Part shown: positions 21,225 through 47,392 of the stretch, piece by piece
How positions within the stretch are numbered: the first letter of the stretch is position 1
Layout: the number at the start of each line of letters is the position of its first letter
Source of the DNA: Pseudothauera lacus
GTDB taxonomy: Bacteria > Pseudomonadota > Gammaproteobacteria > Burkholderiales > Rhodocyclaceae
Reading direction: 5' to 3'
Assembly (NCBI RefSeq): GCF_003034845.1
Contig: NZ_PZKC01000010.1
Coordinates: 62,001-126,000 of the forward strand
Length of the DNA stretch: 64,000 nt
Program-made: the position numbers and the translations under genes
The notes under the pieces: model-generated
What the model saw: the letters and a program-made list of their open reading frames with translations, nothing else
Told to the model about the DNA's origin: nothing
Database searches by the model: none

Positions 21225-21301
21225 GCGCCCGTAGCTCAGCTGGATAGAGTACTGCCCTCCGAAGGCAGGGGTCGTGCGTTCGAATCGCGCCGGGCGCGCC
21301 A
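21225..21301 (+). tRNA. tRNA-Arg (anticodon CCG)
   Basis: A 77-nt cloverleaf with CCA encoded: acceptor arms GCGCCCG/CGGGCGC, D-loop AGCTCAGCTGGATAGAGT, anticodon stem CTGCC/GGCAG with loop CTCCGAA (anticodon CCG, reading CGG), and T-arm with GTTCGAATC. Its 3' 48 nt are repeated at 41376-41423. The gene is the integration site of the 20-kb island and was regenerated intact by it. Confidence 0.97.
21254..21301. repeat. attL: left direct repeat of the island (3' half of tRNA-Arg)
   Basis: The 48 nt from GCCCTCCGAAGG to the terminal CCA are identical to 41376-41423. The identity starts at the anticodon stem and stops exactly after CCA. The flanks differ (ACT before this copy and CCG before the other), so the repeat limits are sharp. 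This is the expected product of tyrosine-integrase insertion into a tRNA 3' end. Confidence 0.95.
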
Positions 21302-24500: not shown

Positions 24501-24649
24501 TCACGCAGGCGGAAAGGCAGCAGCGTCTGAGTGTAGGCCGCCCGCTCGGGCGCGTCGCCGTCGGGAGCAATGTCCAGGCCATAGCGATGGGTATAGCCGA
24601 CATCCGCCAGCCAGCCCAGGGCTTCCTGCTCAAGTTGGTCTTCGGTCAT
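21503..24649 (-). CDS. hsdR: Type I restriction enzyme, R (endonuclease/translocase) subunit
   Basis: The 1048-residue protein has an N-terminal PD-(D/E)XK nuclease (D140 in RRPDIILF, E154-x-K156 in VLIELKN). An SF2 translocase follows, with Walker A GSGKS (residues 298-302), DEAH box ([13 protein letters not shown]), TGTP motif and a C-terminal helical domain. With HsdM and HsdS it forms the complex that translocates and cuts unmodified DNA. It is the last gene of a minus-strand series, separated from hsdS by four other genes. Confidence 0.96.
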
Positions 24650-27075: not shown

Positions 27076-27840
27076 TTAATCATTCTTCATATCAAATGTC
27101 TCGATGATCTTTTGAGCAGGAATCGGTTTTCCGCCCCCTATGAATGTGCAGGGATAGTGGCTACCCAGTGGCATTGGCTCTCTTTGATGCGCCCTGTAAA
27201 TGTACTGCCAGAGATTGTTGATATACGCGTCGGGGTCGCTGGGGCTGGCTGAAAACTTGACGATCACGGGCTTGAGAAATATTTGTAGCTGCTCTCGTAG
27301 CTCTTGTGCATGTGAAACCCCGTATTTCGCCTGCCATACAGTCCCGACTAAAAACTCGGGAAGGGAATAGTCCAGCCCCGTGCATTCGGCAGATTTCGCA
27401 TCGTCAAAGGTATCAAACGCGTAGGGGCCTCCAGAAGACATTCCCTCAAAAGCATTACGTTCTTCGATATTTTTGATTGCCAGGGCGACATCGCTCTCGG
27501 CAATGCAAACAAGCCTTGCCGCCTTGGTTAGAAAAGTCCGGGCACCAGAAAGCGAGTCAAGTAATCCGTCCTCAAACCATACAGGAGTCCCGTCGTAAGC
27601 AGCACGGTGGTAGTAGGTGACTTCGCCAAAATCCCGGTTCGGCGAGGCTTTTAGATGTGTGGCCATCAACGATGGCAAATACGGCGAGCCAAAAATTTCC
27701 CGATAACAACTATCAGGTGCACTGAGAAAATCAGGCCAGTCTCCATTTGCCACATTTTCAATCATGCCAACGCCGACTTGATAGATTGCCGCGAGCGTTT
27801 TGATCGCATGAGTGATGTCGTCACAACCAAGAGGAGTCAT
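27076..27840 (-). CDS. Hypothetical protein translationally coupled to hsdS
   Basis: A 254-residue soluble protein without recognised domains. Its ATG overlaps the hsdS stop (ATGA at 27837-27840), so translation is probably coupled to hsdS. It is rich in aromatic residues and has no signal or membrane segment. Codon use looks A+T richer than the core genes. The tight coupling argues that it is an accessory of the restriction-modification locus rather than a random insertion. Confidence 0.7.
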   Translation of the reverse strand: MTPLGCDDITHAIKTLAAIYQVGVGMIENVANGDWPDFLSAPDSCYREIFGSPYLPSLMATHLKASPNRDFGEVTYYHRAAYDGTPVWFEDGLLDSLSGARTFLTKAARLVCIAESDVALAIKNIEERNAFEGMSSGGPYAFDTFDDAKSAECTGLDYSLPEFLVGTVWQAKYGVSHAQELREQLQIFLKPVIVKFSASPSDPDAYINNLWQYIYRAHQREPMPLGSHYPCTFIGGGKPIPAQKIIETFDMKND

Positions 27841-29174
27841 GAAGCAAAGTCCGCAGGTTGAGCTTGATCTTCACCCAATCGCAACTGCCCGGAGATCAGG
27901 CGGGGCAGCAGGGTATCGCGGAGGGTGGCGAGGGTTTGAGCATGTTCAATGTTTTCGTTTGCACGCTCGACAAACGAGGTAACCACCTCGCTGAACGCTA
28001 TCTGCACTGACTCCGGTGGCAAGATGATTGGCATGTACTCAAGCGACTTGCCCCATTTGGCGTAGGGAATCGTTGAGCCTTCCGAGTGCTGTGTCGCGTA
28101 CTCAATCGTGGCTTCTTGAAATGCCAGAAAAAGTGCGAAGCCAGAAGCGTTAAGATTGTTCGATTTCAGCGTAAAGACCGTCGTTCGCGTAACGCCGTCA
28201 AACGGCGCAATGCAAACTTTATGAAAATACGGGCGCATTGCGCCAAACAAAATATCCCCCCTGCGGAACAGAATCAGGCTGCTATTGGCTTCTTCACCTG
28301 ATTTGTATTCCTGAAGAAACGGCATCTTGGCGCTGATGCTCTCGATTGGTACATACGGGAGCGCCCTCGTTTCGTCGGATGGTTTTGTTCGCTCGTTACG
28401 GAGCGCAAGGACATCACCTAGCGTCCCAACCCGCCACCCCCTCGGCACAGGCCCCAGTTCCGATTCCTCGAACCCATCCGGGAACAGGGCAGCGGTGGCT
28501 TCATCCATGCCTTCCGGGGCCAGGCCCTGCTGTTTGGCGCGGACGGGGTCGAAGTCCACGAACCAGGACTTGAACAGGGCCTGGGCGATGGCTTTGAGGG
28601 TGGCGTTGGTTTCGCGCAGGAGGGTGATGCGGTCGTCGAGGGCGCCAAGAATGCTTGCGATTTCGTTCTGGAGGTCAATGGGGGGAAGGACAACAGGGAG
28701 TTTTCTTTGGGCGGTTATCCCAATATATGCACGTGTTGAGCCTGCTCCAGCCCAAGCGCCCAAGGTTTGTTGAAAAGGAGCAGAGTCGAAGTAATACTTC
28801 AGGTATCGGCTATTTAGTCGCTTGGCGTCCAGCACTCTGTAATACGTCACCTGAGGCGTTAATACCAAGTATTCGGTTTCGATTTTGCCGACCAATGCCG
28901 TGCGACCAATGGTCGCTTTGTGCGACAACAGAACATCCCCCGTTTTTGCAAACCCTTTACGCAGTGCAGCAGCCTGTTGCTTCGTGATGAACGCACAGTT
29001 AATGGTGTCGACAAGGCCATCTTTCATGTCCGAGGCCATGATGAACGGTATGCCTGCGGGAACGAAGTCAGAGGCCTTGGGGTGAATGGCGCCATGATTT
29101 CCATCAAGGGGTGGCCCCAATACCTTCTGAGTGACCAGTTCGTCAACGGAGTATGTTTGCCACTCAGAACTCAT
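27837..29174 (-). CDS. hsdS: Type I restriction enzyme, S (specificity) subunit
   Basis: The 445-residue protein has the two-repeat HsdS layout. Target-recognition domain 1 spans about residues 5-165. A conserved helical spacer follows ([49 protein letters not shown]). Target-recognition domain 2 and a C-terminal helical repeat ending LISGQLRLG complete it. It determines the bipartite DNA target. Its start overlaps the end of hsdM by 11 bp. Confidence 0.95.
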
Positions 29175-30723
29175 ACCCCAGCCCCCCCAACTTCTGCCGG
29201 ATCAAGGCATCCAGCTCCGCCCCCTTGGCCATCTGCTCCCCCAGCTTTTCGGTGAGGGCCTGCATCTTGTCCGCAAAGGCTTCGTCGTCGTCTTCAACGG
29301 CTTCGGCGCCGACGTAGCGGCCCGGGGTCAGCACATGGCCGTGTTCGGCGATTTCGGCGAGGGGCACGCTGCGGCAGTAGCCGGGCTGGTCGGCGTAGGG
29401 CTCGGTGTTGTCGCCCGCCTCCCCGCGCCAGGCGGCGACGGTGGCGGCGATACGTTCGATGACGGCATCGGTCAGTTCCGCCTGCACCCGGCTGATCATG
29501 CGGCCCAGCTTGCGAGCATCAATGAACAGCACTTCGCCCTTCCTTGCCGTCTTTTGCTTGGCGAGGAACCACAGGCAAGCAGGAACTGGGGTGTTAAAAA
29601 AGAGTTGGCTAGGTAAGGCAACCATCAATTCCACCACGTCGGCTTCCAGCATGGCACGGCGGATGCCGTCCTCGCCGTTCTGGCTGGAGCTCATGCTGCC
29701 GTTGGCGAGTACTACACCGGCGCGGCCCTGTGCCCCCAGATGGTGGAGTATGTGTTGAAGCCAGGCGTAGTTGGCGTTGGCGGCGGGTGGAGTTCCATAG
29801 ACCCAGCGCGGGTCGCCTTCCAGGCTACCGTGCCACCAGTCGCTATCGTTGAAATGCGGGTTGGCTAGTATGAAGTCCGCTCGCAGGTCCGGGTGCTGGT
29901 TGCGGGTGAAGGTGTCGCCGTATTCCTTGCCCAGGTTGAAGTCGATGCCGCGAATGGCCAGGTTCATGGCCGCCAGCCGCCAGGTGGTGGGGTTGGATTC
30001 TTGGCCGTAGATGGAGACATCGCCCAGCTTGCCGCCGTGGGCTTCGATGAACTTTTCGGACTGCACGAACATGCCGCCGGAGCCGCAGCAGGGGTCATAC
30101 ACCTTGCCGTGGTGGGGGGCGAGCACGGCCACCAGGGTCTTGACGATGGAAGCCGGGGTGTAGAACTGGCCGCCCTTCTTGCCTTCGGCGCTGGCGAACT
30201 GACCCAGGAAGTATTCATAGACCTGACCCAGTACGTCGCGGGCGATGTTGGCATCTTCGCCAAAGCCGATGCTGGAGATCAGATCCACCAGTTCGCCCAG
30301 CTTGCCGTCCGGTAGCTCAGCGCGGGCGTAGCGTTTGTCCAGGATGCCCTTGAGGCGGGGGTTTTCCTGCTCGATGACGGTCAGCGCCTCGTCAATGCGC
30401 TTGCCGATGTCCGGCTGCTTGGCGGCGGCGCGGATGCTTTCCCAGCGGGCGGCTTCGGGCACCCAGAAGACGTTGACCTCCTTGTAGTAGTCCCGGTCTT
30501 CCAGTTCCTCGGCGAGGAGTTCGTCGTCGCAGTCGTGCAGGAAGTAGTCGTCGGCCTCGTCGGCAAAGCGGCGGGTGAGTTCGACGCGGCGGGCGGCAAA
30601 GGTGTCGGAGATGTACTTGAGGAAGATCAGGCCAAGCACCAGGTGCTTGTATTCGGCCGCGTCCATGTTGGCGCGCAGCTTGTCGGCCGTGGCCCAGAGG
30701 GTCTTCTTGATGTCGTCGAGCAT
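29164..30723 (-). CDS. hsdM: Type I restriction enzyme, M (N6-adenine methyltransferase) subunit
   Basis: The product (519 residues from ATG 30723, [19 protein letters not shown]) has the HsdM N-terminal helical domain and SAM motif I ([13 protein letters not shown]). The catalytic motif IV reads NPHF instead of the usual NPPF ([13 protein letters not shown]). The frame is open for 16 more codons upstream, but they do not look like HsdM. It methylates the adenines specified by HsdS and forms the core of the restriction complex. Confidence 0.95.
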
Positions 30724-30897
30724 AGATGGGTACTGTTGCGCCAAGCAGTGATGAGCCAGGCGGGATGACATGCCACTAGATTGAGAGGTGAGTAGACTAC
30801 AACGGCAGGCGCAGCGTTGGCGGTGTTCGATAACGAGGGTAGTACCGCTTTCTGCGGGCCTGTTAGTCTCCGGGGAGGGTTGGGCGCTATCGCGCTT

Positions 30898-33566: not shown

Positions 33567-35177
33567 ATGCGAGCAGCAACTGAACGCGACTGGAACAACC
33601 TCCAACCCATGCCGCGCGACCACGAGCGCATCTCGCTCGACCTCGCCTTCACCGCGCAGCAAATGTGCAGTCTGCGGCTGGGCTTCATCCCTGTCGACCA
33701 GGGCCAGAAGTGGTTTCTCTACTTCGAGGACGACACCCTGCATATCCACCGCAGCTGGACCGGCTACAAGATGTTCGAGGTGGTATTCGCGACGGATGGC
33801 GACCCTGCACGGGCGCGCTTCGCACGGGTGAATCTCGACCCCGAGTGCTACTCCGGCACGCTGGACGAAGCGCGAGAAACGCTGCTCGAGCTGCTGCAGT
33901 ATTACGCCTCGGACGAGGCCCACGAACCCTACGAGCCGAGCTTCGTGAGCGCGCTGCAGGAAGCGACACAGCCCAACTATCTGGGCTCGCCTCAGGTGGT
34001 CGGGGAACTGCTGCTGCCGTTTTTCAAAGGCGCGCTGTGCAAGGAACTCCCCCGTCATGTATCCGGGCTGGAAGTCATGCCAGAGTTTGAGGAAACCAGC
34101 TACAGCGATCTGCTGGCCATCAATCAGCGCATCACCTCGGTGCTGTGCGGCGAGGATGAGGCATTTCACGGGCTGGAAGCCTGGCGAACCGAGAAGGGTC
34201 TCGGCCAGGCGATCATCCACCAACTCGGCCTCGACGCAGGCTGGTACGCGGACGAGAACCTCGGCTGCATCGTCAGCGAAGGTCTGGCGGGGGTGTCTTC
34301 CCAGATCACCGGGATCGTCGATGACTGGGCGAAGGAAGACGCCCCCCTCGATTTCGATGATCTGATGCACTACGTTGCGGTGCTCCAGCAGTTCACCACC
34401 AGCGTCGTGCTGGGCACGCACACGGTGCTCTTCCCCGGCATCACGCTTAGCGACTTCACCTGGGAGAGTCGAACGCGCTTCGTGCGCCTTGACGATGAAG
34501 TGGGGCAGGAGGCTCGCGAGGAGGAGGATCTCCTCCCCGGCCCGCCGGTGCATCCACGGCCGGACGACAAGGGCAAGCCGGTGAAGCTGACCGCACCCAG
34601 CACGCCGACCGCATTGTGGACCTGGCAGGACGCCGCCAGCACGGCGGTGGTGATCCCGGACGGCCCCATGCCGACGGAGCTGGCGGGCATCGGATTCGAC
34701 TCCTGGCGAGGAGCCCCCATGGACAACGCCGGCTGGGAGCAGCTGGCGGCACAGAGTCTGATCGACGAACCGCCCTTTGCTCCGCCCCCAGGCAAGAAGG
34801 CGGCGGCCGGGGTGGTAGTCGTGGAGCGTGACGGACGCGTGTGGGTCGTGGCGCCCAGCAATGCCTTCGGGAACTATCCGGCAACCTTCCCCAAGGGCAC
34901 CCGCGACGCCGGCATGAGCCTGCAGGGTACGGCGCTGCGAGAGGCGTTCGAGGAGGCGGGGCTGCGGGTTGAACTCACCGGGTTCCTCGTCGATGTTGCC
35001 CGCTCCACCAGCCACACGCGCTACTACCTGGCCCGCCGCCTAAGTGGCAACCCGGCGGACATGGGCTGGGAGAGCCAGTGCGTAATGTTGACGCCGGTCT
35101 CCGAGCTTGCCGCACTGCTGACGAGCAAGAACGACGCCCCCATCATCCAGGCCATCAAGGCGCTCGCATCACAATGA
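33567..35177 (+). CDS. NUDIX hydrolase with large N-terminal region
   Basis: The 536-residue protein ends in a NUDIX fold (about residues 408-535). Its box reads G444-x5-M450-x7-REAFEEAGL (458-466). The metal-binding REXXEE core is intact, but the first Glu of the classical box is Met. NUDIX enzymes cleave nucleoside diphosphates linked to another group. The first 400 residues hold an unrecognised domain (KWFLYFEDDTLHIHRSWTGYKMFEV near 48-72) and a helical middle. ATG 33567 is used, and ATG 33609 is possible. It precedes the 107-residue gene by 22 bp. Confidence 0.8.
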   Translation: MRAATERDWNNLQPMPRDHERISLDLAFTAQQMCSLRLGFIPVDQGQKWFLYFEDDTLHIHRSWTGYKMFEVVFATDGDPARARFARVNLDPECYSGTLDEARETLLELLQYYASDEAHEPYEPSFVSALQEATQPNYLGSPQVVGELLLPFFKGALCKELPRHVSGLEVMPEFEETSYSDLLAINQRITSVLCGEDEAFHGLEAWRTEKGLGQAIIHQLGLDAGWYADENLGCIVSEGLAGVSSQITGIVDDWAKEDAPLDFDDLMHYVAVLQQFTTSVVLGTHTVLFPGITLSDFTWESRTRFVRLDDEVGQEAREEEDLLPGPPVHPRPDDKGKPVKLTAPSTPTALWTWQDAASTAVVIPDGPMPTELAGIGFDSWRGAPMDNAGWEQLAAQSLIDEPPFAPPPGKKAAAGVVVVERDGRVWVVAPSNAFGNYPATFPKGTRDAGMSLQGTALREAFEEAGLRVELTGFLVDVARSTSHTRYYLARRLSGNPADMGWESQCVMLTPVSELAALLTSKNDAPIIQAIKALASQ

Positions 35178-36104: not shown

Positions 36105-38930
36105 TCACACAACGTCGAAACCACCCTGCAGAGCGGAGTAATTCACCTCGTAGACCTTGGCGGTCACGCCGCGAATCCGCACAGACCGCCGGCGCTCGCC
36201 AGTCCCCGCAGCCTTGGGGATAACACCGCACGCCTCCAATACATCGAGCGCGCGCTTGAAGTCGTAGCCCTTCAGCGCCTCGCGCAGTCCATCGCCGGTG
36301 AACAGGTACAGCCGCCCGCCCGTATCGTCTGCCTTCCACCAGCCCGCACGATCACGCACCACGGTCGAGTCCACCGTCCAGGCCGAAAAGCGGCTGTCGC
36401 CATGTCGTTCGATGAACGACGTGAGACGATCAAGGATCTGTCTACGCTCGTCGTTGCCCTTTCCGCGCATCGATCGCCACAGTTCAAAACCGGTCACGGC
36501 TGCAGCCGTGGCAGCACCCTTGTTCCACCCGGTGATGCCGTACTCGGTCGCCAGTTCTCCAGCCAACGCGAGCAGAGCGAAGCGGCCCGCAGCCCGTCTA
36601 TCTTGACCCTCTCCGTCACTCGGGTTCAACTCCGGCAGCAACTTGATCTTCTCAAGCTGTGCCGCGAGATCTCGCGCGTCCCCTGTCAGTCGCTCAAGGA
36701 ATGCACGCCCAGCGTTTCCGTGGTGCTGGCGTGCTGCCCGCTTGATGGCATCAGACAAGGCAGTCCCGGACGAGAGCCCGTGGAGTTCGTCAAAACATCC
36801 GAAGCGCCGCACCACGGGAATGTCGAGCAGGCGCACCGCCTGCCCAGCCTTGGTTCTGTGCCCGCCATCCGCCATCGTCGTGCCGATGCTGCGCTCGCCG
36901 GTTGAGACAACAACAGCCTGCCAGCGCGTCACAGCCCTCGCTGACCCGGTTCTGTTCGCGCGCTGCTTGCCGGTGCCGTTGCCGAGCGAATACACAATCG
37001 CGCCGACTTCTCGCGGGTCACACTCGCTGATTTCGTCTAGAGCGAGCAAGCAGTCGTTGAACATCGCCGCCGCGCCCTCCATGCCGTTGGCGGTCGCACG
37101 CCAACTGCGCTTGTAGCCCGGACCACCCCATACAGAGCACGCGGCTTCCAAGATGGTGGTCTTTCCGGTGGAACTGTCACCGACGAAGTGTAGCCCGCCG
37201 CCCTCCGTGTTCGTTCGCTTTAGCAGCGGACCAGCAAATGCTGCTGAAAGTGCAAGGATGAACATCGGGTTGCCCTGCGCCCGCGCCGCTATCTCTTTTC
37301 GCCACCCTTCGAGCGTACCAGCTTGCCCGTGCTCTTCATGTGCGCGTTCCCCGGACTGAAAGATTACACCGGACGCATCAGGGCCTATAACGGCATCGGG
37401 AAGCACAAACGCGGCGCCGCACCATCCGACCTGAAGGGCGCAGCGGATCCGCTTTACCGGAGGCCGGTCCTGCAGGTAACGCGAGAGCGTCTGACGCGCA
37501 CACGGGTCGATATCAAGGCCCATCGCAAGCAGCTCGCCGCGCAGGTCCGCACCGTCACCTTTTAGCAGTTCCATGGGCATTGCCCACGTGCGCCACCGGC
37601 CCGCCGTGGTCCGAAAACGAAGCAGTCGGCCGAAGTTGCTCTCGGTGCCATCGAACGTCTGGGCCAGCACATAAAGCGGGCCGCACACAAACGAATCGAC
37701 GGGCGAGGGTTCGCCGCTCTTCGGGGTGGACATGGTGTGATGCCACACGCCGGGTCGAAGCCTGCGGCCAGTGTCCAGAACCACCCAGTCATCGTAGACA
37801 CGGAAGCATGGGCGCTCGCTTTCAGGCACTGAAGGGGTAGCTTCATGCTGCTTGGCCGTGCCCGCCGGATCGAGGGCTGAATTGGGCTCGGCCAGCAGCG
37901 CATCGCCCGCTGGAGCGTCTTCGACCTCCGGCGCCACCGGATTGCCATGCAGCACGCCGAGCAACTGCCGTCCGGCCTCGTTTGGGCCGAGTTGAGACCA
38001 AACATCCCAAAAATCGACGCCGTCGCCTTCGACGCCCTCCGGGACCGCGACATACCCGCCAACTGCCGCGGCAGCTTGGCGCGCTTCGCGCTCAGCGCCG
38101 ACGTCCGCAGCGATGACGATCTTGATGTCCGGACGGATCGCCCGTACTGCCTCAGCGGCCGCCCGCAGGTTCCCCTTGCAGAACGCCGCCACCGCCGGTT
38201 TGCCGGTCGCGTCGGCACATGCGGCTGCCGTGGCGACGCCTTCCGCGACGATAACCTCCTTCACCGCGCCATCCGAGAACTTTCCGATCGCGCAGAAACC
38301 GCCGCTTTTCTGGCCGCCCCGGAGCGATCGCTTCTCGCCGCCCGGGCTAATCGCCTCAATCGACATGAGGTTCTGATTCCGATCGAAGATCGGCGCCAGC
38401 AGTGCGTCAGACCAGCCGTCCTGCGGCCAAGGACCGCGGCGCACCAGCGAGCCGAAGCCGAGACCGCCCTTCCGCTCGACATACGGGTGATCGGTGAGGT
38501 TGGCGGAGGCTGCGTTCCAGATCGCACACGCACGCTCGGCGGCCTCCGCGCGCTCGGCTTCCAACTCTGCGGCTGCCCGCGAGGCACGTTCGGCCCGCTC
38601 GACACGGCGGCGCTCGGCCTCGGCGGGATCGATCGCGATCGGGCGAGAGTCGTCGCGCCAGCCGCGCTGGCGTGCCTCGAAGTACAGCGACCCAGCCGTG
38701 ACAGGACCACCCGCCTTGGCAGACTTCCAAGTTGCCGCTGCGGCACGCTCGTCGAAGTTTATGGCCGTGCTCGACCAATCGAGCCACACATCGCGGCCTG
38801 CTTCGCCGAGGGCGTCCTTCGTCGCAAAGGCCATCTTGACCCATAGCTCCCGGTCACTCGCATCGAGGACGCTCAGTGCGCTCGCGACCCGCTCGGGCGT
38901 GTCCTGCTGATATGTAGCGGCAGTCATCAC
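36105..38930 (-). CDS. Island replication primase-helicase (PriCT-2/Toprim/DUF927)
   Basis: The 941-residue protein has an N-terminal PriCT-2 domain (residues about 10-90) and a charged coiled region (100-135). A Toprim fold follows, with E230 in VAEGVATA and the acidic AADVGAE motif near 275. A DUF927 helicase-like ATPase comes next, with Walker A GDSSTGKTT (584-592) and Walker B LLALDEIS (about 633-640). Such fused primase-helicases start replication of P4-like satellites and integrative elements. It is translationally coupled to the preceding 134-residue gene (4-nt overlap). Confidence 0.88.
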   Translation of the reverse strand: MMTAATYQQDTPERVASALSVLDASDRELWVKMAFATKDALGEAGRDVWLDWSSTAINFDERAAAATWKSAKAGGPVTAGSLYFEARQRGWRDDSRPIAIDPAEAERRRVERAERASRAAAELEAERAEAAERACAIWNAASANLTDHPYVERKGGLGFGSLVRRGPWPQDGWSDALLAPIFDRNQNLMSIEAISPGGEKRSLRGGQKSGGFCAIGKFSDGAVKEVIVAEGVATAAACADATGKPAVAAFCKGNLRAAAEAVRAIRPDIKIVIAADVGAEREARQAAAAVGGYVAVPEGVEGDGVDFWDVWSQLGPNEAGRQLLGVLHGNPVAPEVEDAPAGDALLAEPNSALDPAGTAKQHEATPSVPESERPCFRVYDDWVVLDTGRRLRPGVWHHTMSTPKSGEPSPVDSFVCGPLYVLAQTFDGTESNFGRLLRFRTTAGRWRTWAMPMELLKGDGADLRGELLAMGLDIDPCARQTLSRYLQDRPPVKRIRCALQVGWCGAAFVLPDAVIGPDASGVIFQSGERAHEEHGQAGTLEGWRKEIAARAQGNPMFILALSAAFAGPLLKRTNTEGGGLHFVGDSSTGKTTILEAACSVWGGPGYKRSWRATANGMEGAAAMFNDCLLALDEISECDPREVGAIVYSLGNGTGKQRANRTGSARAVTRWQAVVVSTGERSIGTTMADGGHRTKAGQAVRLLDIPVVRRFGCFDELHGLSSGTALSDAIKRAARQHHGNAGRAFLERLTGDARDLAAQLEKIKLLPELNPSDGEGQDRRAAGRFALLALAGELATEYGITGWNKGAATAAAVTGFELWRSMRGKGNDERRQILDRLTSFIERHGDSRFSAWTVDSTVVRDRAGWWKADDTGGRLYLFTGDGLREALKGYDFKRALDVLEACGVIPKAAGTGERRRSVRIRGVTAKVYEVNYSALQGGFDVV

Positions 38931-39657: not shown

Positions 39658-40122
39658 TCACTCTCTCTGGTAGGCCGTCGGGTTGATTGGAAATATATCA
39701 GTGGGCTGTGGAAGTTCGCTGTCCGCGGTAACGCCTTTGCAGATCTCCTTGATCCTCTCGGCCTTCAGCGGGACCTCGCCGTCACAATCGCTCGAAACGT
39801 TTTCGCAGGCCACGGTCTTCGACTCGCCGGTTTCCCGCATGCGGTCGCGGACCGCCATCTTGATCTCCCAGTCTCTCAATGCGTGGTTGCCTGCGGAGTT
39901 GCCCCGGCGGCTCTGCGACCAACCGAAGGCCTGATTCGGCTCCTTGCCCGCTGCGATCGCAGCCAACGCAGCTTCAAGCCAATCGAGCGCATCGTCATGA
40001 CGCACCTGTGCGGTTCGGCGATCCTCTGAGATCGACCGAAGCGCGTACTTGGCCATCGTGCGTACAGCCAGTTTGTTGCCGGGCTCCAGCAGCCCGCCGT
40101 CGACAAAGAACTCGCGGCTCAT
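39658..40122 (-). CDS. Hypothetical protein coupled to the integrase
   Basis: A 154-residue, mainly helical, soluble protein (MSREFFVDGGLLEPGNKLAV...). Its ATG overlaps the integrase stop (40119-40122), so both are probably translated together. No domain is recognised. It may be an accessory to integration or replication control. Confidence 0.65.
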   Translation of the reverse strand: MSREFFVDGGLLEPGNKLAVRTMAKYALRSISEDRRTAQVRHDDALDWLEAALAAIAAGKEPNQAFGWSQSRRGNSAGNHALRDWEIKMAVRDRMRETGESKTVACENVSSDCDGEVPLKAERIKEICKGVTADSELPQPTDIFPINPTAYQRE

Positions 40123-41249
40123 ATCGCCTGTACCTTCGCGAGCTGGGCGAGCACGCGCTCGCGGATCAGATGGCCGTAGTGCCTAGAAATCATCTCGATA
40201 CTGGTGCCGCAAATCTTCGAGACGGTCATCGGATCCATGCCGCTCACCAGCATCTCCGAGATCGCGACATGGCGCAGCGAATACATCACTACGGTCTCGG
40301 GCAGTCCTGCGGCCTTTCGCGCCTCTTGGAAGGCGTCGCGCCACTCGAAACGCGTCCAGGCGACTCCGGAGCGCGTCAGCAGCGGTTCATCAACATCGCG
40401 CTGTCCTGAGGCAGACTTGAGCAGCGCAAGCGCCTTCGGTGAAACAGGGATGGTGCGACGTCCGGTTTTGCCGCTAACAGTCAGCAGGCCGGCCGGATCG
40501 AGATCGCCCACGGTGCAACTCGCCAATTCGCCCGGGCGACAGCCGGTCAACAACATAACCTGGAGGAACACAGTCAAATCGGGCGTGGCGGCAGCGATTA
40601 GCTTCTTCCGATCGGCCATCGTCAACGATACGTCGCGGCGCTTGCTCGCGCCCTTGAAGGCCTCGACGCGGTCCCATTGCGCAGTGCTTCCAGCCAGGCC
40701 CATGCGGTAGGCCAGGTTCAGCGCAGCCTTCAGTGTGGCGAGATTCCTGTTCGCGGAGTCCTTCGCGCGGCGAGCTGCATCCGGGTCCTCGTCCTCGTCG
40801 TCCTCGCGGTCGACCTGGGAGTTTCGCCAGTCGGTAATGTGTGCTGTACGCAGCGCGGGTAGCTTGATACGGCCGAACTTCGTTCCGTATACCAGTCGCT
40901 TGAATCGACCCTCGGCGTCTTTGGCAGTGGCGTCGCCCTTCGCGCTGCGCCGGTCAGCAACGTAGCGCCTGCAGGCTTCCTCGACGTCGACGACTTCGGT
41001 GCTGCCACCATGGCACAGCTCGAACCATTGGCGAGCCGCCTTCGCGGCGTCGTCATAGGTGGCGAGACTGCCCAGCGCTCTGTATTTCTGCCCGCCGTCC
41101 TCGGCGCGCCAGCGTGCGATCCAGGTGCCGGTGCCGTCTGCCAGCTTGCGGTAGCCGAGATAGCAGCCGGCCTCGATGCGGTTCCAGTAAGGCTCGCGGC
41201 GGGCCTTAAGCTTCTTGCGGTCGCCGACTGTACTGATCGCGGTTGCCAT
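40119..41249 (-). CDS. int: Tyrosine-type site-specific integrase of the island
   Basis: The 376-residue protein has an N-terminal arm-binding domain (GTWIARWRAEDGGQKYRALG), a core-binding domain (about 85-190) and a C-terminal catalytic domain. The catalytic domain shows R238 (TGCRPGELA), the YSLRH box (R326) and the nucleophile Tyr358 in SRHYGHL. The first His of the usual HxLRH box is Tyr and the LGH His is Thr, a variant seen in related tRNA-targeting integrases. The gene's 5' end points toward attR, 127 bp away. Confidence 0.95.
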   Translation of the reverse strand: MATAISTVGDRKKLKARREPYWNRIEAGCYLGYRKLADGTGTWIARWRAEDGGQKYRALGSLATYDDAAKAARQWFELCHGGSTEVVDVEEACRRYVADRRSAKGDATAKDAEGRFKRLVYGTKFGRIKLPALRTAHITDWRNSQVDREDDEDEDPDAARRAKDSANRNLATLKAALNLAYRMGLAGSTAQWDRVEAFKGASKRRDVSLTMADRKKLIAAATPDLTVFLQVMLLTGCRPGELASCTVGDLDPAGLLTVSGKTGRRTIPVSPKALALLKSASGQRDVDEPLLTRSGVAWTRFEWRDAFQEARKAAGLPETVVMYSLRHVAISEMLVSGMDPMTVSKICGTSIEMISRHYGHLIRERVLAQLAKVQAI

Positions 41250-41375: not shown

Positions 41376-41423
41376 GCCCTCCGAAGGCAGGGGTCGTGCG
41401 TTCGAATCGCGCCGGGCGCGCCA
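41376..41423. repeat. attR: right direct repeat of the island (tRNA-Arg 3' fragment)
   Basis: Identical over 48 nt to the 3' end of tRNA-Arg at 21254-21301, including the terminal CCA. The 5' half of a tRNA is absent, so this is not a second tRNA gene. It marks the right border of the island. Confidence 0.95.
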
Positions 41424-41644: not shown

Positions 41645-44600
41645 TCACTCCACTTCAAGTACGACGCTGATTGGTGCGCTGCCGCTGTGGCTCCTGTATC
41701 GGGCCTTCCCGCAATACACGAACGGCGCGGCCTTCCCATTCGTTAGCTTCGTTTCTCGTACGAAGAGATGCAGGGCGATTCCCAGTTTTTCGTGCTCGAT
41801 GATCTCCCGTCCGCGCTTGCTCTCGGGGGTGGTCGAGTTCTGGCTTGACCATTGAAAGGTGCGATCGTCGATCCAGCGGTCGAGATAGCGATGATCTTGG
41901 GATTTGCCTTGCTTGTTCAAGGTAACCAACAACACCTGGGCATTGCGCTCCGGGATCGCTACGTGCCCGCTGTTCCAGTTCCCCGGATTGAACTCGACAC
42001 CGAACAGCGGCGGGATCTCTTCACGCATGAAGGATTCGCCGATTGCGAGTTCGAGCGGGTCGATGACTGCTTTCAGGCGGGCGAGTGTGCGCAGTTCGTC
42101 CGCCATTTCAGGCGTGACGTGGATGTCTTCATAGTCTGGGTTGTTGGCGACGAGCACGTAGCTGCCATCGCGTTGTTTGGTGACGGCCCGCAGCAGATAC
42201 TGATCATCCCCCGTACGATCCTGGCGCTCGATTGCCATGATGGTGCCGGTAATCGAGCCGGCGTTGGTTGGGGTGACGAGTTCGAGTAGCAGATAGTCCC
42301 CATCACGGATTGGGTTTTTGCCGCCGTTCATGGAGTTGCCCGAAGCACGGGCAATGAAGTGGCGGGCGGGATCAAGGCGACCATAGTCTGCACCCACGCG
42401 GCGGTGTTCCTCGATATCGGCGCGGGCGGTGCGGAAATGGCCACAGGCGATGCGCAGATTGGGAAAGTAGGGGAGCTCCGTCCCCTCCGGACGCTGTCGC
42501 TGGATAGGAATCACGTTGTCGGCACTGTGCGTCGCGGTGCGCCTGGCTTCATAGGCGGCGAGGCGATAGTCGATCAGTTCTTGGACTAGATTCGTGAGCG
42601 CATCCTGATGCTCGGGTGGCACTCCGAGAACGGGCTCGAAGCAATCGCTGCGCACACGGAACAGGCGGTCCTTCTCTGCCGTTTGATTACCGCCGATCCA
42701 GGCGTTTACTGGATTGTCCCGCCAGTAGCGCTGCCAACTGGCCGTTGTGCCGTCTTCAGTATTTCTGACGATGTCGGGGAGATCGGCGAGAAGCGGCCGG
42801 CGGCGCTGCAGAACTTGCCATGAGCGTTCCGCGAGTTGTCCGAGGCTGGGTGCAGTGTGCCAGCCGTCGAGTTCCTGGAAGGCTTCGAGAAGTACCATCT
42901 TGAAGCTCTTGGTCATCGCGGTGGTCTCGAGTTCGCGCAGCAGTATCTGGTGCGTTTCGAGAATGATCGACTCGGTCTCACCTAGATCACCCTGCGTTTT
43001 CACTAACCCGAACCAGCTCACGTACTCCCGACGCATCCGTCCCAGGTTAGCGCCGCTGCGGTAGAACTCGGCCAGCGTCGGGCGGCGTCCCAGGCCGTCG
43101 CGCAGCGCCTCGTAATCGCGGGCTACGCCGTCGCCATCGAGTGATTTGAGGAAGTCGATCAACTCCAGGTCGAAGTTGATGTAGCAGCCGGAGGGGAGTT
43201 CGAGCCTGCGCGTCTCTACCCTGCGCGCGAACTCCGCCAATTGCTTGTATCCGCTGCCGAACTGCCCAAGTGCCTGTGGTTTGTGCAGGAAACTGTGATG
43301 GTTGCCGATGAAGTCGAGTACCACCAGACGTTCCTTGCCCTCGGCGCGGCGAAGTCCGCGGCCGAGTTGCTGCAGGAAGAGGATTTTCGATTCGGTTGGC
43401 CGCAACATCAGCACTGTGTCGATGGTGGGCAAGTCGACGCCCTCGTTGAAGAGGTCGACCGAGAAAACCACCGCCAGTCGCCCGTCAGCGAGTTGCTCCA
43501 GTGCCTCGCCGCGTGCCAGCCCCGAGCCGGCATACACGGCTGCTGCTGGGATGCCTTGCAGGCTGAACTGTGTCGCCATGAACTCGGCGTGTCGTACTGA
43601 TACGCAAAAGGCGAGCGTGCGTTTTTGTGCGCGCTTGCGCCATTCCTTCAGTGCGTGGCGGGCGCGAGCGAGGGTGGCGAGCTTGTTCGACAGCTTGTCG
43701 GGGTCGAAGCGGCCATTTCGCCAGGGAATCTCCTTGTAGTTGACCGAAGCATCCCAGACCCCGTAGTAGTGGAAGGGAGCGAGCAGGCCAGCGTCGATGC
43801 CCGCAAAAAGGTTCCGGTCGAAGACTAGGTTGTCGTCACAGAGGGACAGGATGTCTGATTGGTCGGTGCGATCCGGTGTAGCGGTGAGGCCGAGCAGGAA
43901 CTGCGGCGCGAAGTGGGTGAGCAGTCGGCGGTAGGTCGGCGCTGCAGCGTGGTGGAATTCGTCGATCACGACGTAATCGAAATGCTGCGGTGCGAACCGT
44001 TCGAGGTGTGCATTGCGACCGAGTGTCTGTACCGAGGCGCATAGCACGTCGACCTGTGTGTCGCGAATCTGGCCCATGTAGTAACCGACACGCGCGCGTG
44101 GGCGGATGCGGACAAAGGTGTCCGCAGCCTGTTTGAGGATCTCTTCGCGATGGGCGACGAAGAGCACGCGACGGGCGCCGAGCTGCTCGGCATCGAAGGC
44201 CGCGAGCCAGGTTTTTCCGAGGCCTGTGGCGAGGACGACCAGACCCCGCCGATAACCTTCGTGCCGTGTGCGGGCGAGCGCGGCCATTGCTTCCTGCTGG
44301 ATCGACGTTGGCGTCGGGGGCTTCTCATTCTCCTCTGCGCTCGGTTCGAGCGGCCGTGGCGGTATAACGCGGCGCGCTTCGTAGCGCTCAATCCACGCGT
44401 CGTTGAGTTCCACCGTACGTGAATCCCGGAACAATTCTTCGAAGCGGGCGCGCGCTTCCAGGAAACCATCGTCACCCGGGTAGTCGATGCGGTAGTTCCA
44501 TTCCAGCCCGTCGGTGAGCGCGGGTCGGCTGATATTGCTGGAACCGATGAAGACGGTGCCGTGCTGCGCGCTTGGGTTGGGTAAGTGGGTAAACAGGTAG

Positions 44601-45508
44601 GCCTTCAGATGAAAGCTGCGGTCACCAGCCTCGAAGATTCGCACCTGTGCGCCTTGCTCTTGCAGCAAGATCAGCAAGCGCAGCGCCTTGGGGTCGGTGA
44701 TGTCGAGATAGTCGCTGGTGAGGATACGGACGCGCGCCGGCGATCGAGACTCGGGAGCTCGTCGGCCGAGCGCGTCATAAAGGTCGGGCAGCAGCAGACG
44801 CAGGCCACTCGCCTGCACGAACGATACTGCTAGATCAATCTCGTCCGCGCGGGCGATCGATTGACAAAGCTGAGAGAGCAGTGGGTGTTGCGGCTCACCA
44901 GTGAAGAGGCGCCGGGTCGGCACGGTCTTGCGCCGCAGTAATCCATTAAGCCAGTCTTCGCTGCGCCCAGGGCGTTGGTCCCCCGTAACCCAGCACTCCA
45001 GCGATTCCATTTCGGGCAGCCCCGCGACCCATTCGCCGAGCCGTGTCTCGGTCGCATCGGTAAAGCAGCGTTCGCCTGTGCAGCGTTCGCCCTCGCCGTG
45101 TTTGAAGCTGAGATAGAAGACGCCACCCGGTTTGAGGCTGGCCCACAAGCGGCCAATGGTCGCGGGCAAGTCGGCCTCGGGAACGTGTAGCAGGCTCGCG
45201 CAAGCCCAGATCCCGTCATAACAGTTGCGTTCATCGACGTCCTCGAAGCGGCGCAGTTCGACTGCCTGACCCGCGTTCTCTTGCGCGAGGCGAACGAGTT
45301 CGGCAGAAGCATCGAAGGCGCGTACTCGAAATCCGGCTCGAACGAAGGCCTTGACGTCGCGCCCGGCGCCGCAGCCAGCGTCGAGGATCAACCCGCCTGC
45401 GGGGATGTTGGCGAGGAAACGGCTGTGCAGCGCGGACATATCTACGTCCAGCGTGCCCTTGGCGAATTCGGTGGCGTTGATGTCGTAGTAGCGGATGGTC
45501 GGGGACAT
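41645..45508 (-). CDS. Multidomain methyltransferase-PLD nuclease-SF2 helicase-S24-DUF3427 protein
   Basis: A single 1287-residue frame. Residues 1-190 are a class I SAM methyltransferase with motif I LILDAGCGAGRD; there is no NPPY-type motif, so it is not an obvious N6-adenine DNA methylase. Residues 205-345 are a phospholipase-D-type nuclease domain with HLK (300-302) and GSSN (322-325). Residues 395-745 are an SF2 helicase with GLGKT (429-433), DEFHH (516-520), TATP (542-545) and QQLGRGLRR (713-721). Residues about 1015-1135 resemble a LexA/S24 domain (SGNSM at 1056-1060, Ser1059). Residues about 1145-1287 match DUF3427. A role in DNA defence is inferred from the domain set and its place beside the island. 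Confidence 0.85.
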   Translation of the reverse strand: MSPTIRYYDINATEFAKGTLDVDMSALHSRFLANIPAGGLILDAGCGAGRDVKAFVRAGFRVRAFDASAELVRLAQENAGQAVELRRFEDVDERNCYDGIWACASLLHVPEADLPATIGRLWASLKPGGVFYLSFKHGEGERCTGERCFTDATETRLGEWVAGLPEMESLECWVTGDQRPGRSEDWLNGLLRRKTVPTRRLFTGEPQHPLLSQLCQSIARADEIDLAVSFVQASGLRLLLPDLYDALGRRAPESRSPARVRILTSDYLDITDPKALRLLILLQEQGAQVRIFEAGDRSFHLKAYLFTHLPNPSAQHGTVFIGSSNISRPALTDGLEWNYRIDYPGDDGFLEARARFEELFRDSRTVELNDAWIERYEARRVIPPRPLEPSAEENEKPPTPTSIQQEAMAALARTRHEGYRRGLVVLATGLGKTWLAAFDAEQLGARRVLFVAHREEILKQAADTFVRIRPRARVGYYMGQIRDTQVDVLCASVQTLGRNAHLERFAPQHFDYVVIDEFHHAAAPTYRRLLTHFAPQFLLGLTATPDRTDQSDILSLCDDNLVFDRNLFAGIDAGLLAPFHYYGVWDASVNYKEIPWRNGRFDPDKLSNKLATLARARHALKEWRKRAQKRTLAFCVSVRHAEFMATQFSLQGIPAAAVYAGSGLARGEALEQLADGRLAVVFSVDLFNEGVDLPTIDTVLMLRPTESKILFLQQLGRGLRRAEGKERLVVLDFIGNHHSFLHKPQALGQFGSGYKQLAEFARRVETRRLELPSGCYINFDLELIDFLKSLDGDGVARDYEALRDGLGRRPTLAEFYRSGANLGRMRREYVSWFGLVKTQGDLGETESIILETHQILLRELETTAMTKSFKMVLLEAFQELDGWHTAPSLGQLAERSWQVLQRRRPLLADLPDIVRNTEDGTTASWQRYWRDNPVNAWIGGNQTAEKDRLFRVRSDCFEPVLGVPPEHQDALTNLVQELIDYRLAAYEARRTATHSADNVIPIQRQRPEGTELPYFPNLRIACGHFRTARADIEEHRRVGADYGRLDPARHFIARASGNSMNGGKNPIRDGDYLLLELVTPTNAGSITGTIMAIERQDRTGDDQYLLRAVTKQRDGSYVLVANNPDYEDIHVTPEMADELRTLARLKAVIDPLELAIGESFMREEIPPLFGVEFNPGNWNSGHVAIPERNAQVLLVTLNKQGKSQDHRYLDRWIDDRTFQWSSQNSTTPESKRGREIIEHEKLGIALHLFVRETKLTNGKAAPFVYCGKARYRSHSGSAPISVVLEVE

Positions 45509-45760: not shown

Positions 45761-46006
45761 ATGTCCATTGATCAGTACGCAACGGCGCCAAAAAAGGCCA
45801 CCAACGTCTCGTTGGCTGAACCCCTCCTTGCAGAAGCAAAGGCATTGCGGATCAATGTTTCACAAGCGGCAGAGGCCGGTTTGGCCAGAGCCGTGGCAGA
45901 AAAGCGCGCAGCGCTTTGGGTTGCCGAAAACGCGGAAGCGTTCGAGTGCTGGAATGCCTACGTCGAAAAGAACGGCTTGCCCTTGGCCAAGTACAGGACC
46001 TTCTGA
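45761..46006 (+). CDS. ccdA: CcdA-family antitoxin
   Basis: An 81-residue protein with an N-terminal ribbon-helix-helix part (TNVSLAEPLLAEAKALRINVSQAAEAGLARAV). Its C-terminal toxin-binding tail ends NAYVEKNGLPLAKYRTF, the typical CcdA ending. It neutralises CcdB and with it represses the operon. The start at 45761 is preceded by AGAAGG. Its stop overlaps the ccdB start (ATGA). Confidence 0.93.
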   Translation: MSIDQYATAPKKATNVSLAEPLLAEAKALRINVSQAAEAGLARAVAEKRAALWVAENAEAFECWNAYVEKNGLPLAKYRTF

Positions 46007-46305
46007 TGGCGCAATTCACGGTCTACCGAAACCCTGGTCACCTTGGGTATCTGCTCAATGTGCAGGCGGACGTGAATGGCCATTTCGCAACACGCGTGGT
46101 GGTTCCACTGTTCCCCGAAGGGGAAATTCCTCACTTCGCGAAAACGCTCAACCCGGTGTTTGAAGTTGAGGGGCATCGCGTGGTGATGATGACCCAAGGC
46201 TTGGCCGCTGTTCCGAACCAGTTGCTCAAGCAGCCAGTGGTATCACTTGAATCCAGGCGCCCGGAAATCGTTGCGGCTTTGGATCTCTTGTTCCAGGGCT
46301 TCTGA
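46006..46305 (+). CDS. ccdB: CcdB-family toxin
   Basis: A 99-residue protein starting MAQFTVYRNPG and containing RVVVPLFPEGEIP and VVMMTQGLAAVP, the CcdB framework. Known CcdB proteins poison DNA gyrase. The F-plasmid toxin ends in Trp-Gly-Ile, whereas this one ends QGF, as chromosomal homologues often vary there. Gyrase targeting is therefore probable but not certain. Overlap with ccdA indicates coupled translation. Confidence 0.92.
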   Translation: MAQFTVYRNPGHLGYLLNVQADVNGHFATRVVVPLFPEGEIPHFAKTLNPVFEVEGHRVVMMTQGLAAVPNQLLKQPVVSLESRRPEIVAALDLLFQGF

Positions 46306-46515
46306 TCCGTCACTGCGCAGGCAACAACGTGTTTGCCTCAAGGCTCGTGTGTCTGGAAGAACGGGCAAGGATTCCAACTCAGCTCCTCATCCCAAAGGTG
46401 CCAGCCCGCCGCCGCCGTGCCCTCAGTTGGGGGCCTGTTTCGCTTCGTTGCCGCTAAGGTCATCAAGCCATGCAGATATGGCACCGCCCATTCTCATTCG
46501 GCGGCCAAGCCGCTT

Positions 46516-46629
46516 ATTCACCCGGCAACGAAATACGCTATTCCGTTCGCCCTGAGCTTGTCGAAGGGCGTTCGTGCCGACTGGGCTTCGACAGGCTCAG
46601 CCCGAACGGTATTTGATTGCCGGGTTAAT
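46516..46629. repeat. 114-bp palindromic repeat element, copy 2
   Basis: Same element as 12539-12676 but lacking 24 internal bp. The left end reads ATTCACCCGGCAA (one mismatch) and the right end is the intact TTGCCGGGTTAAT. Its right end provides the TAA stop codon of the esterase gene that reads into it from the right. The 210 bp between ccdB and this element hold nothing recognisable. Confidence 0.85.
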
Positions 46630-47392
46630 AGCTCACCACTCCGCCCTCGACACCGGGCCCGTCCATTCCGCACACACGCCGCAGCCAGGCGCCGATATCG
46701 GCGATCTCCTCAAGGTTCACCGAATGCGGCAGCTCATAGCTTCGCCACTCCGGCGCCATGCCCAGTTGCCTGAGCAGCTCGGCCGCCTGCAGTCCGAGTG
46801 TGGGCGAGACGACATCGTCGTCGGTGCCGTGGGCGGCGAAGACCGGGGTGTCGCGGCGTGCCGCCTCGAAGCCTTCGATCAGCAACCGGGGGCTGGGGAT
46901 GTAGGTCGACAGGGCGACAATGCCGGCCAGCGGGGCGGGGTGGGTGAGTCCGGTCATGTAGGCCACCGCGCCTCCTTGCGAGAAGCCCGCCAGGATGACG
47001 CGTTCGCTGGGTATGCCGCGCGCGGCTTCGCGCTCGATCAGCTGGCGGATCAGCGCACGCGATTCGAGCAACCCGGCTTCGTCGATCTGCCGGCTGTCGG
47101 GGGCCAGCGAGACGATGTCGTACCAGGCGCGCATGACGTAGCCGCCGTTGCAGGTCACCGCGCGGTAGGGTGCGTGCGGGAAGACGAAGCGCAGCGCCGG
47201 GGTGCGGGGCAGGCCCAGTTCGGCGACAATCGGTTCGAAATCGCTGCCATCTGCGCCCAGACCGTGCATCCAGATCACGCTGAAGCGCGGATCGGGGCCG
47301 GTTTCCAGCTCGATGGGCGGGGTGTCGAAGAGGGGGAGGTTCAAGCGGCTCACCTTGCAGAAACCGAGCGCCAGGGTGGGGGCGCTCGTCAT
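46625..47392 (-). CDS. Carboxylesterase/lysophospholipase-like serine hydrolase
   Basis: The 255-residue alpha/beta hydrolase (ATG 47392, MTSAPTLALGF) belongs to the phospholipase/carboxylesterase family. It has the oxyanion segment VIWMHGLGADGSDF, nucleophile Ser in GFSQGG, Asp in HGTDDDVV and His in ELPHSVN. It should hydrolyse short-chain or lyso esters in the cytoplasm. The last residues (GVVSY) and stop are encoded at or in a repeat element, so the C-terminus may have been altered. The frame is open 25 codons further upstream, overlapping the divergent gene. Confidence 0.9.
   Translation of the reverse strand: MTSAPTLALGFCKVSRLNLPLFDTPPIELETGPDPRFSVIWMHGLGADGSDFEPIVAELGLPRTPALRFVFPHAPYRAVTCNGGYVMRAWYDIVSLAPDSRQIDEAGLLESRALIRQLIEREAARGIPSERVILAGFSQGGAVAYMTGLTHPAPLAGIVALSTYIPSPRLLIEGFEAARRDTPVFAAHGTDDDVVSPTLGLQAAELLRQLGMAPEWRSYELPHSVNLEEIADIGAWLRRVCGMDGPGVEGGVVSY

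Follow-up and report, generated by a model that had tools for sequence, protein, structure and literature searches.

The stretch of DNA considered here, hereafter the window, comprises 64,000 nucleotides of the Pseudothauera lacus genome (NCBI RefSeq assembly GCF_003034845.1, contig NZ_PZKC01000010.1, positions 62,001 to 126,000 of the forward strand) and contains, at positions 41645-45508 on the minus strand, a single uninterrupted ATG-to-stop frame encoding a protein of 1287 amino acids. From the N-terminus, this protein combines a class I S-adenosylmethionine (SAM) methyltransferase, a phospholipase D (PLD)-family nuclease, a superfamily 2 (SF2) motor, a segment at the position of a coupler, an S24 module of the LexA/UmuD fold and an SRA-fold domain within DUF3427. 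The Pfam matches above cut-off, namely Methyltransf_25 (residues 41-129), PLDc_2 (223-347), ResIII (400-547), Helicase_C (624-720), Peptidase_S24 (1019-1143) and DUF3427 (1153-1274, profile positions 126-245 of 280), bear out the five modules that a first-pass annotation, made from the letters of the DNA, had recognized in this frame. Judging from its modules, folds, conserved residues, phylogeny and gene context, all of them observed directly, the gene probably encodes a SauUSI-type, modification-dependent (Type IV) restriction enzyme carrying two extra modules, the methyltransferase and the LexA/UmuD fold.

The frame is a real gene, as had been proposed. Homologues that span the whole query in one frame are present in other genomes, with identities of 55-87% over the best segment and the nearest relatives in Thauera (87% for the best segment in T. 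aminoaromatica), and all modules occur in a single frame in 45/128 rows of the core tree described below (44 distinct cores). A fusion of frames by sequencing or assembly error is ruled out, because many genomes carry the same fused frame. The four residues that the first-pass annotation had picked out for mutation, H300, K302, K432 and S1059, were correctly placed, and each is invariant in 52/52 aligned S24-bearing homologues. The structure alignments comprised 44/52 (A1) and 36/44 (A2) of the available stretches, and 20/52 (A3) and 18/52 (A5) with L058 in addition.

The central part of the protein resembles the Staphylococcus aureus enzyme SauUSI. The best PADLOC model is mREase_IV (Type IV mREase, E 2.6e-112), the next class being PbeA at 4e-24, and the PDB match to SauUSI (7clg, its residues 27-645) extends over query residues 197-817 with E 8e-86. 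The nuclease (residues 201-385; 44354-44908, minus strand as for all modules of the gene) resembles the SauUSI nuclease domain in an AlphaFold model of residues 1-400 with a mean predicted local distance difference test score (pLDDT) of 88.9 (Z 22.5, 168 residues aligned, root-mean-square deviation (rmsd) 1.9), and its HxK catalytic motif, H300-K302 (44603-44611), is kept in 52/52 homologues. In the motor (ResIII and Helicase_C, residues 395-760; 43229-44326), the residues of Walker A, which includes K432, and of motif VI are conserved, the PLD and motor residues being invariant across the same 52/52 homologues. The reader (residues 1146-1287; 41648-42073) is the C-terminal part of DUF3427, and the model of residues 770-1287 (mean pLDDT 80.9) matches SRA domains over its own residues 381-518, with SUVH6 (Z 10.3), SUVH5 (10.1), LpnPI (9.5) and MspJI (9.0). 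The profile of the C-terminal domain has 7clg as its sole PDB match at E<=0.1 (E 1.7e-10), and in the profile alignment D1210 and W1220 are the counterparts of SauUSI Asp858 and Trp868, both invariant in 19/19 rows. According to PMC7913695, Asp858, Trp868, Met829, Tyr831, Phe841 and Ile842 contact or surround the flipped 5-methylcytosine (5mC) in a model of SauUSI, Asp858 being a base contact and Trp868 part of the pocket.

Several points weigh against a simple equation of the protein with SauUSI. Four of the six reader residues that can be placed are changed (M829 to S1180, Y831 to H1182, F841 to L1194 and I842 to V1195), so that the enzyme may target a base other than 5mC; its core is like that of SauUSI, with a base preference that may have shifted. 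The mostly helical segment that would be the coupler (residues 770-1005; 42494-43201) is assigned by its position and its predicted secondary structure, and the alignment of 7clg over several domains of the 770-1287 model has an rmsd of 13.3, while the predicted template modelling score (pTM) of 0.49 does not fix the arrangement of the domains in this model. Two relatives (L236 and L338) end after the S24 module and have no SRA domain, which suggests that the reader is not always needed. Both restriction and methylation are, finally, predicted activities.

The relationships within the family were approached with a quick, midpoint-rooted tree of 128 PLD-motor rows, from which L062, L058, rows of under 420 core residues and rows lacking PLD and motor in one frame were excluded. 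A single group of 73 rows (SH-aLRT 98) contains all 62 S24-bearing ones; it splits into a group of six rows (support 95), in which a HIT domain, confirmed by Pfam in 6/6 of the N-termini scanned, takes the place of the methyltransferase, and a second group of 67 rows (support 97). A detectable S24 module is missing from two of the six HIT rows, and in 45/67 rows of the second group a single frame holds all five modules. In others of the second group a gene of its own, lying just upstream, encodes the methyltransferase, which belongs either to the same subfamily (L020/L070, L236, L257 and L338) or to a distant one, with 24% identity for L046 and L185 by alignment and 27-31% local identity for L046, L049, L056, L059 and L060. 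A divergent methyltransferase gene also lies just upstream of L051, labelled 'none' in the tree; the frame of L042 is broken and its tree label is unsure, and L037 has no recognisable methyltransferase gene. Four homologues (L006, L047, L053 and L064) are broken between motor and S24 module; phase variation was considered for them and rejected, the longest single-base run per gene being 5-8, and they are therefore taken as decaying copies. A second, plain SauUSI-like gene lacking S24 accompanies some S24-bearing genes, either beside them (L020 13436-16570 and L070 4939-6267, identical in the core) or at about 5 kb (L057 16544-19687).

The S24 module (residues 1014-1143; 42080-42469) has the LexA fold, as the first-pass annotation had supposed from a short serine motif. 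In the C-terminal model, residues 242-382 fit LexA, including the region of the cleavage site, with 1jhe as the best structure (Z 16.4, 123 residues aligned, rmsd 2.1), followed by complexes of LexA or lambda repressor with RecA, the LexA-RecA structures 8s7g, 8gms and 8trg being at most one Z unit lower. Sequence comparison gives a fainter signal: the stretch as a single sequence has no PDB match at E<=1, and the profile of its alignment has weak ones to UmuD (8gmt, E 0.0058) and LexA (7b5g, E 0.43). In the profile alignment, an invariant Ala-Cys-Gly superposes on the scissile bonds of UmuD (Cys-Gly, C24-G25) and LexA (Ala-Gly, A84-G85), and this places the equivalent bond at Cys1022-Gly1023 (42440-42445), 36 residues (counted from Gly1023) before the conserved catalytic serine position, Ser1059 (42332-42334). 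By the same alignment, Arg1107 (42188-42190) superposes on the lysine of the LexA motif VTVKRL, Lys156. Of the Ser-Lys dyad that marks self-cleaving S24 proteases, the protein has kept the serine and has Arg1107 in place of the lysine.

This substitution is a property of most of the family. Among its 74 S24 rows, 68 of them distinct, Ala-Cys-Gly stands at the scissile position in 67/68 and the serine is kept in 68/68 distinct rows, while the position of the catalytic lysine holds Arg in 63/68, Lys in 4/68 and Cys in one, the broken gene L077. The four Lys rows (L194, L216, L217 and L218, from four genomes) all have the HIT domain instead of the methyltransferase, and outside the HIT group every S24 row has Arg apart from the broken Cys copy. 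A test on the Lys and Arg counts ignores relatedness, and the tree is the better statement; as the tree is midpoint-rooted, the direction from Lys to Arg is taken from the canonical S24 dyad and not from the root. We take the S24 module to descend from a self-cleaving one, and we think that free self-cleavage has been lost in the methyltransferase branch. The four HIT-type proteins with a Ser-Lys pair are the better candidates for genuine self-cleavage.

The suggestion of self-cleavage made in the first-pass annotation therefore stands as regards the fold, the scissile dipeptide and the serine, but cleavage of the ordinary kind is doubtful because the catalytic lysine is replaced by arginine. 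A wider reading, offered tentatively, is that of a lineage with a built-in LexA/UmuD-type switch between motor and reader and, at the front, an enzyme that can be exchanged (HIT or methyltransferase). Where the front enzyme is HIT, the intact Ser-Lys pair would split the protein on a damage signal, and in the methyltransferase lineage the arginine would make cleavage strictly dependent on a co-protease, or the loop would be a permanently bound pseudo-substrate. If this were true, the switch would link restriction directly to SOS/RecA inside one polypeptide. MutT-like genes are mentioned beside SauUSI homologues in a figure legend of PMC7641849, which fits the idea of an exchangeable accessory enzyme. 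It is unlikely that the module of the present protein is a working conditional self-protease, in which a RecA filament, or the engagement of DNA by the enzyme, would bring about the cut at Cys1022-Gly1023 and free the methyltransferase-nuclease-motor part from the SRA reader, leaving the enzyme switched off or unspecific. The near-complete conservation of the Ala-Cys-Gly and the serine, the same site together with Ser-Lys in the sister HIT group, the fit to LexA at the cleavage-site region with LexA-RecA complexes close behind, and the relatives that end right after S24 would all agree with such a protease; the arginine in 63 of the distinct rows speaks against it, since arginine is a poor general base. 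The LexA variant K156R is said to retain slow or RecA-dependent cleavage; no paper recognisably describing this came up in the literature searched. The preferred reading remains that of a SauUSI-type enzyme in which this module no longer cleaves itself freely.

The methyltransferase (residues 1-195; 44924-45508) has RPA2492 (3e23) as its closest solved relative, with Z 29.7, 193 residues aligned, an rmsd of 1.7 and 35% identity over these 193 residues, and the next structures are small-molecule and tRNA methyltransferases. The glycines of motif I (G45, G47 and G49) and D66 are invariant in 41/52 rows, those that have letters there. No N6_N4, N6 or C5 methylase family of Pfam matches the protein at E<=1, and the motif IV region reads DGIWACAS, in keeping with the earlier remark that the motif of amino-methyltransferases is lacking. 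By these comparisons the methyltransferase is of a small-molecule-like type.

A plasmid search with the methyltransferase module alone gave 18 best-ranked records (H81-H98, all of which were inspected; 41-61% identity), which are not independent, being mostly from Pseudoalteromonas and Acinetobacter; two partial records of similar identity, H101 and H122, stand outside this count. A nuclease gene accompanies the methyltransferase in 17/18. It is fused to, or lies directly before, a SauUSI-like gene in three (H81, H86 and H87), and an HNH endonuclease gene adjoins it in 11 (H83, H84, H88, H89, H90, H91, H93, H94, H96, H97 and H98; downstream in 10 and upstream in one, with the methyltransferase fragmented in H83 and H91) or stands one or two annotated genes away in three (H82, H85 and H95), while for H92 no nuclease partner was found. 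In an independent sample drawn from its class, the subfamily (E<=1e-45) is present in 5/219 genomes, own genome included, and two of the four relatives have a nuclease partner, L338 before a SauUSI-like S24 gene and L340 before HamA and a helicase; the other two, L337 and L339, count the other way, having no PLD, motor or HNH profile match in the fetched flanks. Among the more distant plasmid relatives (34-37% identity), one of four adjoins a DNA/RNA endonuclease gene and three do not, a fifth record being unannotated. The link between methyltransferase and nuclease is strong among plasmids; elsewhere it exists but is less widespread, as 17/18 plasmid records against 2/4 genomes indicate.

Several arrangements of these methyltransferases deserve mention in their own right. 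At L340 (4643-8667), a methyltransferase of the same subfamily directly precedes HamA and DEAD-box helicase genes (Pfam), a Hachiman-type pair; Hachiman consists of HamA, which has the nuclease role, and a helicase. On plasmids there is a two-gene module in which the gene for an HNH endonuclease of about 335-382 amino acids comes after that for a class I methyltransferase (L237 4995-6579, L240 4989-6676, L244 4001-5640 and L245 3995-5624). Some copies of this module lie beside Cas (L244), BREX (L250 and L252) or McrBC-like (L247) genes, and by sequence its HNH partners can be divided into at least two groups. Fusions of a methyltransferase of another subfamily with an HNH-like part, of 567-641 amino acids, occur at L178 (3-1928), L180 (5134-6837; HNH part just under the Pfam cut-off) and L182 (8593-10320), and plain SauUSI-like genes lie about 5 kb from L178 and adjoin L180 and L182.

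These associations bear on a further alternative, namely that the protein is a one-chain restriction-modification enzyme, in which the methyltransferase would place a mark on an unusual atom of the host's DNA and the nuclease would attack DNA that lacks this mark or is otherwise marked. In its favour can be cited the pairing of the subfamily with HNH genes in 14/18 plasmid records, 11 of them adjacent, the position of some pairs beside BREX, Cas or McrBC genes, the chromosomal copy that immediately precedes HamA and a helicase gene, and a second, distantly related methyltransferase subfamily that precedes S24 enzymes in Alteromonas-type genomes and has an HNH-like fusion in L178 and L182. Such a function seems quite unlikely in view of the want of any N6/N4 or C5 methylase family match, the small-molecule and tRNA methyltransferases as nearest folds, the HIT domain that the HIT group has instead, and the fact that a modification-dependent reader needs no protecting mark.

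The family to which the gene belongs is scattered. DUF3427 is found in 20/398 genomes of the sample of the window's phylum, in 34/346 of the phylum of G595 (Ilumatobacteraceae) and in 48/344 of that of G596 (Erysipelotrichaceae). A match spanning the protein from start to end is present in 10/199 genomes sampled from its own family; this number counts the genome studied here, and one of the ten copies is broken. Direct scanning of viral contigs revealed no relative, and in a phage collection searched by tblastn no record covers 80% of the query in one place. Some unannotated faecal contigs named 'Bacteriophage sp.' align in two parts to the methyltransferase, PLD and motor regions, with 63% of the query covered in H41 (MT836554.1) and 42% in H49 (MT836124.1).

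Next to the gene lies a 20.1-kb integrative element bounded by a perfect 48-bp direct repeat (21254-21301 and 41376-41423), which consists of the 3' end of a tRNA-Arg(CCG) gene and its copy. The element carries an integrase (40119-41249), a DUF927/PriCT-2 primase (36105-38930), a NUDIX protein (33567-35177) and type I restriction-modification genes (HsdM 29164-30771, HsdS 27837-29174 and HsdR 21503-24649). Beyond the other end of the gene, on the opposite strand, a CcdA/CcdB toxin-antitoxin pair is located at 45761-46305, with domains from about 45761 (CcdA) and about 46006 (CcdB), the listed open reading frames (ORFs) starting too early relative to these domains. The gene does adjoin an island and a toxin-antitoxin pair, as first described, but it sits 222 bp beyond the right attachment repeat and outside the element; that it is island cargo was rejected because the repeat at 41376-41423 separates the two. 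As regards an older insertion at this tRNA gene, of which the gene might be part, an exact match to 28 bases of the tRNA 3' end is present at 3/331 loci, two belonging to the window itself and the third to a control stretch; of the homologue loci, 9/38 have tRNA genes in the flanks retrieved, among them a tRNA-Arg(CCG) at L059. A repeat of about 120 bp at about 46514-46632 has 62 matches in the own genome and 67 in G174, window included, and none in two of the six genomes of the genus sample.

The neighbourhood of the homologues is rich in defence genes, which agrees with the defence-type enzyme proposed at the outset. For 20 homologues, the ORFs up to about 4 kb away (145/153 scanned together, the eight longest separately) were compared with those of 20 arbitrary 8-kb stretches from genomes of the window's family (138/140, two being dropped for size). 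At E<=1e-20, 55 PADLOC families were matched in the 145 neighbour ORFs and 3 in the 138 control ORFs; these are families and not genes, because several models can match one ORF, and the contrast is weakened by the controls all being from the window's family and the targets from several taxa. A rough count of member ORFs, 11-12 against 2, comes from the best 25 of the 55 families, and the family counts are preferable to it. Among the neighbour families are HNH, AbiEi/AbiEii, SoFic, Drt and mREase_IV, the last a second SauUSI-like gene. The commonest Pfam families were Fic and HNH_2 (three ORFs each), with GmrSD_N and AbiEi_4 among those found in two, and none of these four is among the best 25 of 131 control families; one of the eight longest ORFs matches helicase models such as GajB, and the other seven have no match. 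That the protein is a DNA-repair or housekeeping helicase-nuclease instead of a defence enzyme, as the detectable relationship of its motor to RadD and other repair helicases and the hint of damage control in a UmuD-like module might suggest, is highly improbable given the presence in 10 of 199 family genomes, the broken copies in several genomes, the defence-gene neighbours and the SRA reader.

For the SauUSI-type restriction enzyme preferred here, a course of action can be outlined. The SRA domain would read a modified cytosine in incoming DNA, reading would activate the SF2 motor for ATP-driven translocation along the DNA, and at two sites the paired PLD nuclease domains would cut both strands, three steps transferred from SauUSI; that enzyme is a dimer formed through its nuclease domains, has a motor that translocates on DNA and a coupler joining this motor to the reader (PMC7913695), and needs two sites for efficient cleavage (PMC3874153). 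For the two extra modules we propose the following roles: placed between motor and reader, the S24 module would act there either as a structural or dimerisation clip or by cleaving itself when activated, the latter an improbable course, and the most likely substrate of the methyltransferase would be a nucleic acid or a nucleotide linked to the nuclease reaction. A protecting DNA mark set by the methyltransferase is possible, and its family lends this no support. A restriction enzyme directed against modified DNA can be a danger to the chromosome of its own cell, and a LexA-type module inside such an enzyme is a candidate for a self-limiting switch, which would connect restriction with the response to DNA damage; the subfamily of the methyltransferase, travelling with several unrelated nucleases, may be a nuclease partner.

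Among known systems, DISARM consists of Drm proteins encoded together and Mokosh of an SF1 helicase with PLD. The first-pass annotation had likened the protein to both, and they do share with it the helicase and PLD activities, DISARM also the methyltransferase, but helicases, gene sets and methylases differ. Membership of either was rejected: no Drm or Mko model appears among the 25 of 26 PADLOC matches listed for the protein, no Drm model is among the matches listed for five nearby ORFs at E<=1, the motor is of SF2 type (ResIII, Helicase_C), and the best PADLOC, Pfam and PDB matches point elsewhere, to a Type IV enzyme and SauUSI. The PLD regions of relatives give weak matches to DrmC and MkoB (L217, E 2e-5 and 1e-4).

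With SauUSI (7clg), the protein has in common the PLD nuclease, the SF2 motor, the C-terminal SRA-fold DUF3427 and the counterparts of Asp858 and Trp868, and it differs from it at M829, Y831, F841 and I842 of the reader. As described in PMC7913695, SauUSI has four domains only (nuclease, ATPase, coupler and target recognition domain) and neither a methyltransferase nor an S24 module. The view that no described system has this whole architecture accordingly holds for the two additions, of which no description was found in the literature searched, where most subscription journals are missing, and not for the core of PLD, motor, putative coupler and SRA, which is the SauUSI architecture of that source; the core is known, and the S24 and methyltransferase additions are new as far as this literature goes. 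RPA2492, an uncharacterised class I methyltransferase, is like the whole N-terminal module and was solved as a single-domain protein. LexA and UmuD share with the S24 module the fold, the position of the scissile site (Cys-Gly as in UmuD) and the catalytic serine, whereas the present protein has Arg for the catalytic Lys and the module is embedded in a restriction enzyme. The closest counterparts are the HIT-PLD-motor-S24-SRA proteins (L194, L216, L217 and L218, from the phylum of the Ilumatobacteraceae genome), a sister group that shares all downstream modules and differs in having HIT for the methyltransferase and in keeping the Ser-Lys pair; the contrast between a branch that retains this pair and one in which the catalytic substitution is fixed makes the idea of a switch directly testable.

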